IMG/VR virus record: IMGVR_UViG_3300037674_000465
Span: 1 to 39,713 of that record
Strand: one strand, 5' to 3'
Length of the DNA: 39,713 bases
Source: a virus
Of the stretch, positions 1-39,713 are shown one piece after another. The notes under the pieces are model-generated. The model was not told the origin of the DNA, did no database searches, and was given only the letters and a program-made list of their open reading frames with translations. The position numbers were made by a program, and so were the translations under genes. Within the stretch, counting starts at the first letter, position 1, and each line of letters starts with the position of its first letter.

Positions 1-132
1 ACCAACAACAATATGCTCAAAGGTTTGAGTATGAGATAGACCTAAATGAGTAGCTGGTTGAACTGCATTCAATCCACCAGCAAGAGTTGTGTAAGTACCG
101 TAGTTAGCTTTTCCATCTTTACCTGCGGCATG
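1..132. repeat. terminal overlap, left copy (circular genome)
   Basis: These 132 bases recur in the same orientation at 39582-39713. The only difference is G at 127 against T at 39708. The ERF gene reads in frame through the repeat from both ends, so the overlap most simply shows that the sequence closes into a circle of about 39,581 bp. The mismatch falls at the third position of an alanine codon on the minus strand, so it is silent, as expected for strain variation in a population assembly. Confidence 0.9.
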
Positions 133-222
133 ATGTTCCATTTGGAACCTTGCCAATGCTTCTTCAATAGTTTTTGGATGTGAAGACTTTGCGTCAGTCT
201 TGGGTTTTGATTGGTTTGGCAT
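1..222 (-). CDS. erf: ERF-family ssDNA-annealing protein, N-terminal part
   Basis: First 74 codons of an ERF-type single-strand annealing recombinase. The frame starts with ATG at 222, reads leftward to base 1 and continues at 39581 after circularisation, giving 252 residues in all. The N-terminus is polar and lysine-rich, followed by a helix ending in HHAAGKDGK and the start of the ERF fold (YGTYTTLAGGLNAVQPAT). A sigma-70-like promoter with a palindrome lies just upstream at 246-274. An AGGAG stands about 16 bases before the ATG, too far to be a standard ribosome site. Its position between rusA and the small early genes places it in the recombination and replication arm. Confidence 0.85.
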   Translation of the reverse strand, partial: MPNQSKPKTDAKSSHPKTIEEALARFQMEHHAAGKDGKANYGTYTTLAGGLNAVQPATHLGLSHTQTFEHIVVG

Positions 223-245: not shown

Positions 246-274
246 AGTCTAACCTAATAGGTTAGAAAGGTCAA
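246..274 (-). promoter_or_regulatory. candidate early promoter of erf
   Basis: On the minus strand, TTGACC (269-274) and TAGACT (246-251) are separated by exactly 17 bases. The -35 box overlaps the stop codon of rusA. A perfect palindrome covers the spacer and the start of the -10 box. The spacing and position fit a sigma-70 promoter read toward erf. This is a sequence match only. Confidence 0.5.
248..266. promoter_or_regulatory. palindromic operator candidate
   Basis: TCTAACCT-AAT-AGGTTAGA is a perfect inverted repeat with 8-base arms and a 3-base spacer. It sits between the -35 and -10 boxes of the erf promoter, where a bound dimer would block RNA polymerase. The 11-base element ATTAGGTTAGA contained in it recurs at 15087-15097 and 37816-37826, both between genes. 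Confidence 0.55.
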
Positions 275-720
275 TGTAATGTTCTAACCGTAATCTTTGC
301 GCCTGGATTTTCTCCTTCTACGCAGTACCTTTTCATGTTTCTATTCTTAACAATCAAAGAATCATCTTTCAATACACTCCCTCCACTACTTTCTGACAAT
401 GCGTCATAAGTACTGCGTTGCAGCTTGTCTACGTCACCGATTCCTTTACTTGTTACAAATACAGGAGCAGAAGGTTTTAGCTTCTTTGCATTCTTTCCTG
501 TTCCGTAATGACTCTTAGGTCTTGCAAATAAAAATATAATCTCTATCTCTACAGCTTGATCAATTGCTTCTCCATCGTAATGAGTTAATGCTGCCTCCTT
601 TACATCCTGTCTCCAAGGTTTTACACGTTTACTATTTTCAATCATGATCCCATGTCCTACATGTCTTTTACTACCTTGCGGAGCAGGGATTCCTATTACA
701 GGAATAAAAATTTCATTCAT
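271..720 (-). CDS. rusA: RusA-family Holliday junction resolvase
   Basis: A 149-residue protein with RusA features. It has the N-terminal GIPAPQGSK strand motif (10-18), the loop RPKSHYGTGKN (67-77) and the acidic motif GIGDVDKLQRSTYDAL with D96 and D98. A second acidic pair follows at VLKDDSLI (D119, D120). In this family the aspartates bind metal and cut four-way junctions symmetrically. The length is close to typical RusA proteins (about 120-150). It would resolve branched intermediates made by the exonuclease and ERF protein encoded beside it. The start overlaps the end of the upstream gene by 8 bases. Confidence 0.9.
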   Translation of the reverse strand: MNEIFIPVIGIPAPQGSKRHVGHGIMIENSKRVKPWRQDVKEAALTHYDGEAIDQAVEIEIIFLFARPKSHYGTGKNAKKLKPSAPVFVTSKGIGDVDKLQRSTYDALSESSGGSVLKDDSLIVKNRNMKRYCVEGENPGAKITVRTLH

Positions 721-3920: not shown

Positions 3921-4109
3921 TTAATCCGCTAATGATGGACTTCTTTGATAAGCACTTAATGAAGGGTGATTCTCCCAGTATTCAAGGTCTTGTAAATGCT
4001 CTTTGAATTGTTCTTGAAACTGTATTGAATCTATTTCTAAATCAATATTGTCATCTGCAAATTCTTCTTTAAGTCGTTCGTAATACTCTTCAGAAAATTG
4101 ATTAGACAT
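3921..4109 (-). CDS. unknown acidic early protein (62 aa)
   Basis: Begins MSNQFSEEYYERLKEEFADD and is strongly acidic and helical. ATG at 4109 is preferred over ATG at 4172 because GAGGA stands about 9 bases before it and the upstream extension looks non-coding. The leader also holds the CTAAACCAA element at 4125-4133. Highly acidic small phage proteins sometimes act as DNA mimics or inhibitors, but nothing here identifies one. Confidence 0.6.
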   Translation of the reverse strand: MSNQFSEEYYERLKEEFADDNIDLEIDSIQFQEQFKEHLQDLEYWENHPSLSAYQRSPSLAD

Positions 4110-4124
4110 GGTTAAAATCCTCAA

Positions 4125-4133
4125 TTGGTTTAG
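4125..4133 (-). promoter_or_regulatory. CTAAACCAA leader element
   Basis: Second copy of the early leader 9-mer, about 15 bases before the ATG at 4109. Here it sits just upstream of a GAGGA ribosome site and is followed further upstream by AACCAACC, so the leader repeats the theme. Confidence 0.4.
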
Positions 4134-4211
4134 TTGGTTGGTTAATTCTCTAGGTCTTACTGTCTCTTTCAACTGCCTAGAATTTTACTGTCGGACTGTC
4201 GCAAACGACAA

Positions 4212-4550
4212 TCAACAATTACCTTTAATAGCATTTGATGTTTTTATAATTAACCCTATTCTCTCAACTCTTTCTTTATCATCTTCAATTAAAGTAGCGT
4301 TTATTAATTCATCTCTTAATAATCGACTACCAATAATATTAATTTCTTTTTTATTGCTAGGTACTTCCATTTTTCCTATTTCAACTTGATTAAAAGTATT
4401 AAAGTACCTTTGAGCTGTTCTAGTGCTTACTTTAAATTGTTCTTCAATATCTTTTTTTATCTCAGTATCTCCAAAACCTTCAATCTTTTTTTCTTTAATC
4501 AGGGCTCTAATTTCATCTTCAATTAGTTCTAATTTTTGGGAATGATTCAT
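4212..4550 (-). CDS. helix-turn-helix protein (112 aa)
   Basis: The N-terminal half contains a clear helix-turn-helix (residues about 26-50, EIKKDIEEQFKVSTRTAQRY). The C-terminal half is helical (ERVERIGLIIKTSNAIKG). The arrangement parallels the candidate small terminase at 6844-7227, which also has an N-terminal HTH ending in SERHAWDDW and a helical C-terminal half. It could be a diverged terminase small subunit or a DNA-binding regulator. Its ATG overlaps the stop of the GP88-like gene (ATGA), so the two are coupled. A short TGTCG-CAAA-CGACA hairpin lies just beyond its stop (4197-4210). Confidence 0.7.
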   Translation of the reverse strand: MNHSQKLELIEDEIRALIKEKKIEGFGDTEIKKDIEEQFKVSTRTAQRYFNTFNQVEIGKMEVPSNKKEINIIGSRLLRDELINATLIEDDKERVERIGLIIKTSNAIKGNC

Positions 4551-6281: not shown

Positions 6282-6518
6282 TCAAGCAAAAAGTTTTTTA
6301 GTAGCTCTGAAAAGATTTTTTAAATCTCGGATTGCTAAGTGAAATTCTTTTTGATGAATTTGGCAACGACTAATGAAATCATTTCCGTAATCATCAATAG
6401 TGAGAATTCCGTTTTCTCTTTGCTGGTTAATTTTCTTCTCTTCTTGATAAGCAATGAAGAGTTGATCTCTAGTCCAGATTTTTTTTGTCTCTGGATTGAT
6501 CTCAGAAAATTTAGTCAT
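6282..6518 (-). CDS. unknown early protein (78 aa)
   Basis: Not recognised. A helical, basic protein beginning MTKFSEINPETKKIW and ending in LAIRDLKNLFRATKKLF, an amphipathic basic helix. The leader carries CTAAACCAAACC (9-mer at 6539-6547), shared with other early genes. The UUCG hairpin follows directly, so this may be a short, single-gene transcript. Confidence 0.6.
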   Translation of the reverse strand: MTKFSEINPETKKIWTRDQLFIAYQEEKKINQQRENGILTIDDYGNDFISRCQIHQKEFHLAIRDLKNLFRATKKLFA

Positions 6519-6547: not shown

Positions 6548-6843
6548 GTGATCTGTTCTTTTTTTATCTCTTGATTTCAGTGTCTCAGAAAAGTAAAAAT
6601 CTTAAGAGTAGAGATTTGATCTTAATTCTGAGAAGTGAACAGCAAAAGAAAAGGAAGAATGGCTGAACTTATGTTTTAATTATAGATGATTTCTCTAGAT
6701 TATTAGGGTAGAGATAGACAGTTTAACAATTGGTTGAGAATTGGGCAGCAAAGAGGAGGCCGCAAGATCTCAATGATAGGGGTAGGGTTGGAGATTTATT
6801 TTTTTAGTAGCACTACTCCCCGAACCTAAATATATTCTCGAAA
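6548..6843. other. non-coding region before the small terminase end
   Basis: About 300 bases without a convincing gene. It contains nested inverted repeats: TCTCAGAA (6583-6590) with TTCTGAGA (6626-6633), and inside these TTAAGA (6602-6607) with TCTTAA (6620-6625). A 13-base element TATTAGGGTAGAG (6701-6713) has an inverted partner at 6859-6871. It could hold a regulatory or packaging-recognition site, since it lies beside the terminase genes. Confidence 0.5.
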
Positions 6844-6871
6844 TTAAGATTTTTTATTCTCTACCCTAATA
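6701..6871. repeat. 13-base inverted repeat pair beside terminase genes
   Basis: TATTAGGGTAGAG at 6701-6713 and its exact reverse complement at 6859-6871. The second arm lies in the last codons of the small terminase candidate. A related AGGGGTAGGGTT lies between them near 6779. This is a possible pac or regulatory site. Confidence 0.5.
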
Positions 6872-7227
6872 GATAGCTCAGGAGCCTTGATGTTTATGAC
6901 TTCTTCTGCCTCACCTACAACTTTACCGAGGTCTGCTAGGAGAGTTTGAACAGTTTGGAGTTGACCTTTTTTCATGGCTTTATCTATGGCACGAAGACGC
7001 ATTGTTTGAATGCGAGAGATCATATTTTCTCTATCTTTGGACCAATCTTCATCGTTCCATTGTTTAACTTGTTTCCAATCATCCCAAGCGTGACGTTCAG
7101 ATATGCCGTAAGTTTTAGCATGATCTACGACAAGTGCTCTAGCTGGAAGACCTTCAGTTTGTCTACGATAGAGTTGTTGCTGCCTTTTCAGGATTTTGTC
7201 TGTAATTTCATCATTACTACGTGCCAC
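6844..7227 (-). CDS. probable terminase small subunit
   Basis: A 127-residue helical protein. A helix-turn-helix lies in the N-terminal half (ALVVDHAKTYGISERHAWDD), followed by a charged linker and a helical oligomerisation-like section (TVQTLLADLGKVVGEAEEV). This is the usual plan of phage small terminases, which bind packaging sites and feed DNA to TerL. Unusually it is encoded on the opposite strand to terL, divergently, with 39 bases between the starts. The start codon is GTG. An alternative is a plain DNA-binding regulator; position beside terL favours terminase. Confidence 0.65.
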   Translation of the reverse strand: MARSNDEITDKILKRQQQLYRRQTEGLPARALVVDHAKTYGISERHAWDDWKQVKQWNDEDWSKDRENMISRIQTMRLRAIDKAMKKGQLQTVQTLLADLGKVVGEAEEVINIKAPELSIRVENKKS

Positions 7228-15054: not shown

Positions 15055-15079
15055 AACCCTGCCTAGTGCAGGGTTTTTT
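15055..15079 (+). terminator. intrinsic terminator after tail tube gene
   Basis: Perfect stem CCCTGC (15057-15062) with GCAGGG (15068-15073), a 5-base loop and six T. An AA/TT pair extends it. It is placed like the terminator behind the capsid gene. Confidence 0.8.
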
Positions 15080-15086
15080 ATTGTTT

Positions 15087-15097
15087 ATTAGGTTAGA
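15087..15097 (+). promoter_or_regulatory. ATTAGGTTAGA element
   Basis: An 11-base match to the half of the erf operator, between the tail tube terminator and the tail chaperone start. It could be a repressor half-site or part of a restart promoter (TAGAAT at 15094-15099 resembles a -10 box). Confidence 0.4.
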
Positions 15098-15120: not shown

Positions 15121-15483
15121 ATGTCATCAAGCCCTAGAACTACACGCTCACCGTTAAGAGCAATAGATCGCTTAAAGAAAGCAGCAAATTTAGATGCAAC
15201 CAAGAAATATGTTGAGTTATCTGATGGAACCACCTTTGAAATGTGGGTAACACCCTTAACAATGGCAGAAAGAGAGAGGGCACAAAAAGGTCCAAAAGGT
15301 GATGATGCGAATGAATTTGCGTTGCGTTTGTTAATTGCTAAAGCTTGTGACGAGAATGGAGAAAGATTGTTTCAAATGGGTGAAATAGATGTTCTAAAGA
15401 ATGAAGTTAGAGATGCAGATTTACAAGCATTGATGCTTGCAGTGCTTCAAGATGACGAGGATGCAATCGACCCAAAATCCTAA
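15121..15483 (+). CDS. tail assembly chaperone, short form (G-like)
   Basis: A 120-residue protein between tail tube and tape measure. A basic N-terminus is followed by YVELSDGTTFEMWVTPLTMAE and helices, with an acidic end (LQDDEDAID). This is the position and size of lambda gpG-type chaperones, which coat the tape measure during tail assembly. The frame ends just after a CCCAAAA slippery site, which gives a longer frameshifted product. Confidence 0.85.
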   Translation: MSSSPRTTRSPLRAIDRLKKAANLDATKKYVELSDGTTFEMWVTPLTMAERERAQKGPKGDDANEFALRLLIAKACDENGERLFQMGEIDVLKNEVRDADLQALMLAVLQDDEDAIDPKS

Positions 15484-36566: not shown

Positions 36567-36788
36567 CTATGCAGACTTCTGGAATTTAGCGTTACTTCCT
36601 GTGCCTATCCACTTTATTTCGTGATCTGAAACAGGAACTTCAGGTTGTTGAACAGAGTACCAACGATGATCACAGGCAATACAATTCCTGCGTCTAATTG
36701 TAAGTTTGTCAGAGGTACGCTTAGTGCATACAACTCTAGTCCTAGTGTTCCCACATTCAGGACAGTCTGTTTGAATTTTATTAATCAT
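36567..36788 (-). CDS. NrdR-type zinc-ribbon protein (73 aa)
   Basis: TDCPECGNTRTRVVCTKRTS, then IRRRNCIACDHRWYSVQ, gives C9-x2-C12 and C36-x2-C39 in a zinc ribbon. The order 'CPxCG ... RRRxCxxCxxRW' closely follows the DNA-binding zinc ribbon of NrdR. The ATP-cone domain of NrdR is absent, so it may be a free regulator. It is the last gene of the early leftward transcript. Confidence 0.75.
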   Translation of the reverse strand: MINKIQTDCPECGNTRTRVVCTKRTSDKLTIRRRNCIACDHRWYSVQQPEVPVSDHEIKWIGTGSNAKFQKSA

Positions 36789-37318: not shown

Positions 37319-37507
37319 TTACAGTTCTTTTTTCCAAAGGATAGAAGCTGTTGGATAAGTTGCTTTTAGTTTGTTAAAAGCCTCTTCTTTTGTTGTGCCC
37401 CATGCCCTGATTTTCATCCCTTGTTTTTTAGGTTCACAAACCCAAAACAAGTGAAGTTTAGGAACTGGCTTAGGCTCGCTTGCTGTAACAGATGTGAAAT
37501 AAGTCAT
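37319..37507 (-). CDS. unknown small protein (62 aa)
   Basis: The main section KLHLFWVCEPKKQGMKIRAW followed by GTTKEEAFNKLKATYP reads as strand-strand-helix, the plan of small double-stranded RNA-binding-like or HicB-like folds. The identity is not known. Coupled to the candidate repressor upstream (ATGA). Confidence 0.55.
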   Translation of the reverse strand: MTYFTSVTASEPKPVPKLHLFWVCEPKKQGMKIRAWGTTKEEAFNKLKATYPTASILWKKEL

Positions 37508-37788
37508 GATTCTTTTGCTTTTAGGATTGAATTGTTTTGTTTAGCGATAACTCTGTTTTGAACTGCCTGTTCCCATTCCGCTTCGTCTTGTTCCTTAAGT
37601 GCTGCATACTCTTTTTTAGTACAAATGCTTTCGACATAATTAAAAATAAGTTCTCTCATGAAAGCACTTACTTGTTTTTCTAGCTTCTCTTCTACATGAT
37701 TCACAAAATATGTCCCTCTTGCTGATGGCAAAAGCACTTGAACGATATATTTATTATCTTCTTTTCTTGGTTTTAATCGACCACTCAT
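37504..37788 (-). CDS. ribbon-helix-helix repressor candidate (94 aa)
   Basis: NKYIVQVLLPSARGTYFVNH followed by EEKLEKQVSAFMRELIFNYV has the order strand, helix A, turn, helix B of Arc/CopG-type ribbon-helix-helix dimers ('VxVxLP ... VSxFxRELI'). A charged helical tail follows. The 11-base element ATTAGGTTAGA lies 28 bases upstream of its start (37816-37826), as expected for an autoregulated repressor, and the full palindrome covers the erf promoter. Confidence 0.55.
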   Translation of the reverse strand: MSGRLKPRKEDNKYIVQVLLPSARGTYFVNHVEEKLEKQVSAFMRELIFNYVESICTKKEYAALKEQDEAEWEQAVQNRVIAKQNNSILKAKES

Positions 37789-37815
37789 GATGGAATACAG
37801 AATCGTTACTCACAT

Positions 37816-37826
37816 ATTAGGTTAGA
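37816..37826 (-). promoter_or_regulatory. operator half-site before RHH gene
   Basis: ATTAGGTTAGA (TCTAACCTAAT on the minus strand), identical to part of the palindrome at 248-266, in the gap between the genes at 37788 and 37834. TAATAT adjoining it could be a -10 box. Confidence 0.45.
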
Positions 37827-38915: not shown

Positions 38916-39045
38916 AGTAATTGAAATGGTTAATTAGTTTACTTGTTTTAATGTCGTTTTTTAGAGACTCGACATTACATTTACGTCTGTTTGAAAGTTG
39001 CGTAAGAACTGCTTTTGCAGCGTGATCGACAGCTTCAGGTGTCAT
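38908..39045 (-). CDS. small basic protein after erf (45 aa)
   Basis: ATG at 39045 overlaps the erf stop (TAATG); stop at 38908-38910 overlaps the next gene by eight bases. It begins MTPEAVDHAAKAVLTQLSNR and is a helical basic protein. Not recognised. The double overlap indicates coupled translation with erf. Confidence 0.55.
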   Translation of the reverse strand: MTPEAVDHAAKAVLTQLSNRRKCNVESLKNDIKTSKLINHFNYYG

Positions 39046-39713
39046 TACGGAGAGTCAGATTCTACTTCCGCTATTTTGGATCTAATGAAAGACAAATGCT
39101 CTGGAGTCGTAATAAATTCCGATATTTTTTCAGAAGATATCTTGTATTCCTGTCTGAAAGCACTTACTACTCTGTTCCTCCCGTGAGTAGGTAATGTCTG
39201 TAGCTCTTTGGCAAGAGCATCTTTCTGAGATTGAGGGATTGATGCCTGAGCAACTTTGCCAGTTACCATTTCATGTGCAACAGGAGAAGGTTTTGCTTGT
39301 CTAGCGTTAGCACCTCTTTGAGGAGAGCGAGCAATCTCTTTCTTTGCAGGAGTAGCAACAGGAGCAGATCCTTCAGCATCATCGTCATCACCTGCTAATC
39401 CATAAATGGCTAACAATGAATAACGTCTTGCGTAAGTAATAGCTGACCCTAAAGCTTGCATGATGTTCCCTCTATTAGGAACTAGATCAGGGAAAGGTAA
39501 GTTGCTTTCAATAACTGTGTTGTAATCACTGTCCTCACCAGTAAAAAGTAATCTGGTTTTTAATACAGTTACAACCTTTTCACCAACAACAATATGCTCA
39601 AAGGTTTGAGTATGAGATAGACCTAAATGAGTAGCTGGTTGAACTGCATTCAATCCACCAGCAAGAGTTGTGTAAGTACCGTAGTTAGCTTTTCCATCTT
39701 TACCTGCTGCATG
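39045..39713 (-). CDS. erf: ERF-family ssDNA-annealing protein, C-terminal part
   Basis: Main body of the ERF annealing protein; the frame runs open off the right edge and joins 222-1. ERF proteins bind single-stranded DNA and anneal complementary strands for recombination-dependent repair and genome circularisation. The family signature is clear: NIMQALGSAITYARRYSLL followed by the acidic GLAGDDDDAEG. A proline/alanine/lysine-rich linker and a small helical C-terminal domain follow. The exonuclease at 1114-1803 and the RusA resolvase at 271-720 make up the rest of a recombination set. The stop TAA overlaps the start of the next small gene (TAATG), so the two are probably translationally coupled. 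Confidence 0.9.
   Translation of the reverse strand, partial: HAAGKDGKANYGTYTTLAGGLNAVQPATHLGLSHTQTFEHIVVGEKVVTVLKTRLLFTGEDSDYNTVIESNLPFPDLVPNRGNIMQALGSAITYARRYSLLAIYGLAGDDDDAEGSAPVATPAKKEIARSPQRGANARQAKPSPVAHEMVTGKVAQASIPQSQKDALAKELQTLPTHGRNRVVSAFRQEYKISSEKISEFITTPEHLSFIRSKIAEVESDSP
39582..39713. repeat. terminal overlap, right copy (circular genome)
   Basis: Second copy of the 132-base end repeat, matching bases 1-132 except at 39708. Assembly overlap of a circular or circularly permuted genome is the simplest reading. A true short direct terminal repeat is less likely because the repeat lies inside the ERF coding frame. Confidence 0.9.

Follow-up and report, generated by a model that had tools for sequence, protein, structure and literature searches.

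The window analysed here is the whole of IMG/VR virus record IMGVR_UViG_3300037674_000465, 39,713 nucleotides in length, which carries terminase, portal, major head and tail genes together with an Erf/RusA/exonuclease set. The record is circular, bases 1–132 being a repeat of 39582–39713 with one mismatch; the two copies disagree at a single base (g at 127, t at 39708), which points either to variation in the population or to a sequencing error where the circle closes. Because of this repeat, the gene for an Erf-like single-strand annealing protein (erf; 39045–39713 plus 1–222, minus strand) can be read across the join, from its start codon at 222–220 to position 1 and then to 39045. It is the first gene of an operon preceded by a candidate sigma-70-type promoter, TTGACC-17-TAGACT (274–246, minus strand), assigned by consensus match only (9 of 12 positions), with a −35 box overlapped by the 3′ end of a gene for a RusA-like Holliday junction resolvase (271–720, minus strand). 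Across the spacer and −10 box of this promoter lies a 19-bp palindrome, TCTAACCTAATAGGTTAGA (O-erf, 248–266), and on the other side of erf stands the gene for a 94-residue predicted ribbon-helix-helix protein (RHH94; 37504–37788, minus strand), which we propose as its repressor.

A search of IMG/VR with the terminase gave at least 600 hits, at identities reaching 99%, and the closest cultured terminase is that of Cyanophage S-2L (43%). For RusA, the cultured relatives among the matches listed include Prochlorococcus and marine Synechococcus phages at 45–48%. The terminase of a relative (83%) is found in a Prochlorococcus single-cell genome, which makes a picocyanobacterium, one of the ocean cyanobacteria, the likely host; four further terminase matches fall in metagenome bins of other groups, one of them a cyanobacterium. 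Pfam searches recovered no tyrosine recombinase (PF00589) in 15 records, and neither a serine recombinase (PF00239) nor a ParA-type partition gene (PF13614) in 8 records, several of these records being fragments.

Both the palindrome and the erf promoter beneath it are present as a preliminary description of this DNA had placed them, as are two exact intergenic copies of an 11-mer taken from the palindrome, ATTAGGTTAGA, at 15087–15097 and 37816–37826 (both plus strand) in addition to that at 248–258 (minus strand). The full TCTAACCTAATAGGTTAGA recurs within three mismatches at one other place in the genome, 37808–37826, against a shuffle average of 0.01. The expected number of exact ATTAGGTTAGA copies is 0.036, and the threefold recurrence had been taken as well above chance. 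That argument does not hold up: 33 different 11-mers occur at least three times in the genome and ten shuffled genomes contain 13–41 such words, so that recurrence of a word picked after looking is weak evidence. The case for an operator therefore rests on conservation in relatives and not on the word count.

We compared by eye the 130 bases following RusA in 25 related loci, 23 of which keep a TTG −35-like hexamer, a dyad and a TAG/TAC −10-like hexamer; the two exceptions are a locus that ends before the site (L096) and a distant relative without it (L106). The left arm is degenerate in five loci (L081, L091, L097, L100 and L162). The palindromes at the erf promoters of relatives are variants in which both arms are altered together. 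Over 15 distinct erf sites, the arms pair in 83.7% of cells, a generous figure since G-T was counted as a pair, compared with 76.3% when shuffled and at most 43.7% when slid, and the arm covariation score is 0.247 versus 0.110, a value that none of 500 shuffles reached. The erf gene is itself mosaic: its identity ranges over 26–94% in loci where the adjacent orf45 mostly exceeds 80%.

A first set of loci yielded 22 matches to RHH94. An enlarged set gave 24 rows, which reduce to 21 distinct close orthologues; the other three are distant homologues in two records (one of them appearing twice) and were not counted as support. With a profile built from erf sites only, the best-scoring upstream stretch lies 19–22 bp before the ATG in all 21 distinct close orthologues, placing an operator at the gene's own promoter, itself assigned by position only, and the score is at least 9 in 18 of them; low-scoring sites linked to RHH94 occur in L091, L162 and L217. 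As a control, 393 upstream regions of other open reading frames (ORFs) from the same loci, a set that may include true operator genes, average −0.6 (s.d. 6.7), with 31 reaching 10. In one locus (L088) the erf and RHH94 sites differ from each other. Upstream of one distant homologue (G008) lies the best-scoring site of that genome (8.9, below the highest shuffle), and the other (G003) has no upstream site.

Among eleven compared genes, RHH94 shows the lowest median identity (42%, 22 loci), and in L095 it is 40% identical between flanking genes that are 94% and 96% identical. As the change in sequence starts near the operator, directly after the orf97 stop, operator and RHH94 gene look to have been exchanged together. 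In cultured phages, tblastn with RHH94 gave no match and queries with two distant homologues gave nothing convincing. The parts of six cyanophages that we searched (S-2L, MED4-184, MED4-117, KBS-S-2A, S-CBS1 and S-CBS3) yielded no RHH94, nor RHH58, the ribbon-helix-helix protein of a sister clade described below, at a useful score, and neither of the two strict palindromes.

The protein likely has a ribbon-helix-helix fold, as judged from structure predictions. The AlphaFold model of RHH94 (mean pLDDT 87.7) has an extended segment followed by helices at 22–35, 40–55/56 and 58–93; DSSP assigns no strand in this monomer model. Ribbon-helix-helix proteins have an N-terminal strand and then helices some 14 and 15 residues long, and as dimers they insert their paired strands into the major groove of DNA. 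A model of the 59-residue core (pLDDT 91.4) gave structural matches headed by the CopASO antitoxin (Z 4.8) and including NikR, AtaR2, a Sulfolobus dimer, CopG with DNA, Arc and ParD. By their titles, 9 of the 15 core matches listed are ribbon-helix-helix proteins, with Z of 2.9–4.8, low scores that may mean a common arrangement only; TCP-domain plant factors are also among the matches. The full-length model had no match in the PDB (Foldseek; VIA re-alignment), and its best match among viral models was an unnamed protein, K7XYK0 (TM 0.67, E 0.043). None of 16 RHH94 orthologues matched the Pfam ribbon-helix-helix families, and querying the PDB by sequence, with A1, A3, A4 and a distant homologue, produced no convincing relative and no ribbon-helix-helix match. 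Sequence methods thus tie RHH94 firmly to no known ribbon-helix-helix family.

We combined 24 sites from other phages, located at erf and at RHH94 genes, into a symmetric profile and applied it to the genome and seven other records. In the window it ranked positions 248 (24.8), 6694 (22.2), 37808 (19.0), 2688 (17.1) and 15079 (13.3), the highest of 20 shuffles being 16.5, so that the intergenic sites at 248, 6694 and 37808 score above all 20 shuffles. The site before RHH94 (O-rhh, 37808–37826) ends 19 bp before the ATG, and the 11-mer copy at 37816 within it lies 27 bp upstream of that codon. The site at 6694–6712 (O-left; minus strand TCTACCCTAATAATCTAGA) is additional to those named in the preliminary description. 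It lies upstream of a separate TATAAT (6679–6684, minus strand) at the candidate start of a left early operon that runs leftwards from 6518, of which, judging by position, the first gene is that at 6282–6518 (minus strand). O-left is found at the same place in L001, L002, L003, L005, L101 and L197. Of the nine listed loci in which ORF 6844–7227, a putative small terminase by position only, is at least 88% identical, seven have a left-operon site scoring 14 or more; most farther relatives lack one. RHH94-type operators occur at early promoters, those of erf and of the left early operon, both in the genome and in relatives.

The remaining intergenic site (O-tail, 15079–15097) is situated between a terminator hairpin (15055–15075) and the gene for a tail assembly chaperone (15121–15483, plus strand; phrog_344, phrog_20784), the first gene downstream. 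It is not significant alone, since its score of 13.3 is below the highest shuffle. At the equivalent tail position, ahead of the orthologous chaperone gene, G002 and G010 have a site scoring 20.1. G002 has five sites including a coding copy of the 2688 type, its next best score being 7.0; in G009 the erf dyad is of different sequence and the tail position has no scoring site (5.2).

The palindrome at 2688–2706 lies inside a gene for a 190-residue protein (ORF 2333–2905) and was rejected as an RHH94 operator, being coding and part of an origin-like segment conserved in relatives without RHH94. It is the one coding copy found, where the preliminary description had named many such copies as a ground for doubt. 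At about 2630–2760 on the minus strand, a purine-rich tract is followed by AT-rich short palindromes, a segment with nearly every base conserved within a gene that otherwise varies, and present in modified form in relatives without RHH94; it looks like an in-gene replication origin, for which lambda O is a precedent. A site at 6860 (the second ATTAGGGTAGA) was set aside with a profile score of only 7.5. An unsupervised count of dyads found none enriched in the genome or in RHH94 genomes, and one dyad present four times in G004 of the sister clade.

At about 4186–4210 on the minus strand, between ORFs 4212–4550 and 3921–4172, stands a dyad of TGTCGTTTGCGACA then GTCCGACAG, at a place where G002 and G010 carry a promoter with an RHH94-type operator; the gene upstream of it encodes a variable (33–53% identity), HTH-like protein of 112 residues, and the two are possibly a second regulator–operator pair. 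A third type of palindrome, approximately TCTAYTGTGWTACAATAGA, occurs in L043 (8445) and L047 (2522 and 3202). At 36567–36788 (minus strand) a 73-residue protein has an NrdR-like zinc ribbon (Pfam PF22811, 28.5 bits, cut-off 27.2), with no space for the remainder of NrdR.

A sister clade (L165–L175), in which erf is 45–54% identical and RHH94 was not found, carries a different palindrome. AATCTTAWTAAGATT is present within two mismatches at the erf promoter in all 11 sister-clade loci, the longer of which hold several further copies, and also upstream of five of seven distinct genes for RHH58 (53–58 residues); those of L168 and L172 have no palindrome within two mismatches upstream. One RHH58 (L175) passes the cut-off for Pfam RHH_1 (E 2.3e-7), a second (L167) falls slightly short and a third shows no ribbon-helix-helix match, and the RHH94 profile aligns with RHH58 co-linearly and weakly (P 0.009, probability 4.5%). 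The clade provides a separate, independent instance of a ribbon-helix-helix gene coupled to a palindrome at the erf promoter.

The repressor candidate and the operator diverge together between relatives. In Mantel tests of distance between erf operators against distance between proteins, which assume exchangeable loci as related phages are not, RHH94 correlates with the erf operator, about 2 kb from its gene, at r 0.63–0.66 (p 0.0002, 16–18 loci). With one locus kept per near-identical RHH94 group (13 loci; L082, L084, L085, L101 and L093 dropped), r is 0.57, and 0.50–0.65 when single loci are left out. In this deduplicated set r is 0.14 for erf and 0.17 for RusA, which adjoin the operator, 0.06 for orf109 and 0.30 for orf149. 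As the N-terminal 56 residues of RHH94 (r 0.51) and the rest (r 0.53) correlate equally, the co-variation does not pinpoint a DNA-reading strand.

On these grounds we consider it probable, with good though not full confidence, that RHH94 is a ribbon-helix-helix repressor which regulates its own gene and has four to five operators, the palindrome being one of them. The preliminary description had named the palindrome as an operator, which comparison with relatives and the different palindrome of the sister clade support, and the 94-residue protein as a good candidate for its regulator, in favour of which stand the upstream sites in 21 of 21 orthologues, the co-variation and the sister-clade pairing. 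Dimers of RHH94 would bind the 19-bp dyad, with a consensus of about TCTAnnCTAWTAGnnTAGA; bound over the spacer and −10 box of erf, they would keep RNA polymerase off, and the targets of repression by RHH94 would further include its own gene and the left early and tail operons. That RHH94 binds these sites, that it represses rather than activates, and which infection state it serves are points we infer. Joint silencing of early and tail operons suits a dormant state better than a late-infection shut-off of early genes, but neither a recombinase of the two types nor a ParA-type gene was found in the records searched, some of them fragments.

Repression fits best at erf, because the dyad there covers usable −35 and −10 boxes. 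At 6694, 15079 and 37808 a simple scan finds no promoter-like pair over the dyad, and for that reason activation also fits at these three sites. Where the −35 box is poor, RHH94 might bind the dyad to activate transcription, or might have both effects, as does the ribbon-helix-helix protein AmrZ (PMC3325190). We regard this as unlikely given the position of the erf dyad over a usable promoter pair. Autoregulatory sites so placed usually repress.

A less probable alternative still is that another phage protein, either orf97 or the HTH-like 112-residue protein encoded at 4212–4550, is the regulator and RHH94 merely hitch-hikes. The 112-residue gene is variable, and orf97, which lies directly upstream of RHH94, itself correlates with the operator in the deduplicated set (r 0.41, p 0.0014). 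The signal of orf97 falls to 0.24 (p 0.05) with RHH94 held fixed, however, whereas RHH94 keeps r 0.48 (p 0.0008) with orf97 held fixed. The site moreover lies at a fixed distance before RHH94, and in the sister clade, too, the palindrome goes with a ribbon-helix-helix gene.

Phage promoters are often under the control of host regulators, and the palindrome could be a host operator copied by the phage and bound by a host transcription factor. We hold this to be very improbable: only 5 of 61 genomes from the genus of the Prochlorococcus single-cell genome match within two mismatches, a smaller number than the reversed pattern gave as a control, and the operator differs among close phages and tracks a phage protein. 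It is just as improbable that the conserved word is a promoter element (an extended −10 region, TATTAGGTTAGAAT) read by a sigma factor, with the dyad incidental, for although the right arm overlaps −10-like TAGACT/TAGAAT boxes at the erf and tail sites, the left arm lies in the spacer and yet co-varies with the right, the dyad at 6694 is upstream of a separate TATAAT, and the dyad varies among related phages as the target of a host promoter reader should not.

Taken as a ribbon-helix-helix repressor, RHH94 has among its close analogues Arc and Mnt of phage P22 and plasmid CopG, which repress through short dyads and regulate their own synthesis. These share the predicted fold of RHH94, Arc and CopG being among the core structural matches, but have no detectable sequence similarity to it, and RHH94 differs in its long C-terminal helix (58–93 in the model) and its several operators genome-wide. 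SvtR of the archaeal virus SIRV1 is likewise a small viral ribbon-helix-helix protein, the fold of RHH94 being predicted; SvtR acts as a repressor at the promoter of its own gene and also binds at three further places in the viral genome, most strongly at a tail-fibre gene, its sites being imperfect inverted repeats (PMC5569661). SvtR differs in belonging to a rod-shaped archaeal virus with archaeal promoters and in that its binding is experimental, that of RHH94 being deduced; unlike RHH94, it has no allelic series of protein and operator described in the passages considered (PMC5569661).

The repressor and stoperators of cluster A mycobacteriophages resemble the RHH94 system in that repressor and sites co-vary across relatives, with several sites per genome and repressor distance compared with site distance (PMC6550527). 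The cluster A repressor is a helix-turn-helix protein in phages with integration or partition genes (PMC6550527), and its sites are asymmetric (PMC9283540); RHH94 is predicted to be of the ribbon-helix-helix type and has four to five palindromic sites, in phages in which neither integration nor partition genes were found. What is different here is the combination, in marine phages, of a predicted ribbon-helix-helix protein, palindromic early and tail operators, exchange of repressor and operator types and no integrase found. The open literature that we searched contained no report of a cyanophage ribbon-helix-helix repressor, nor of a ribbon-helix-helix repressor combined with palindromic operators, type exchange and no integrase.

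Stable lysogeny in marine picocyanobacteria is unsettled, and T7-like cyanophages are reported to integrate and form no stable lysogens (PMC8776855). The system described here matters in this respect as a concrete candidate repressor together with its operators, for which a well-populated group of phages supplies a natural series of matched variants. Tentatively, and as a possibility that we would not yet favour, it may represent an allelic immunity system in integrase-less marine cyanophages, in which operator and repressor would be exchanged as a cassette between otherwise similar phages, giving some ten specificity types, and would keep the early and tail operons silent while the phage lies dormant, without integration, in Prochlorococcus or in organisms related to it.
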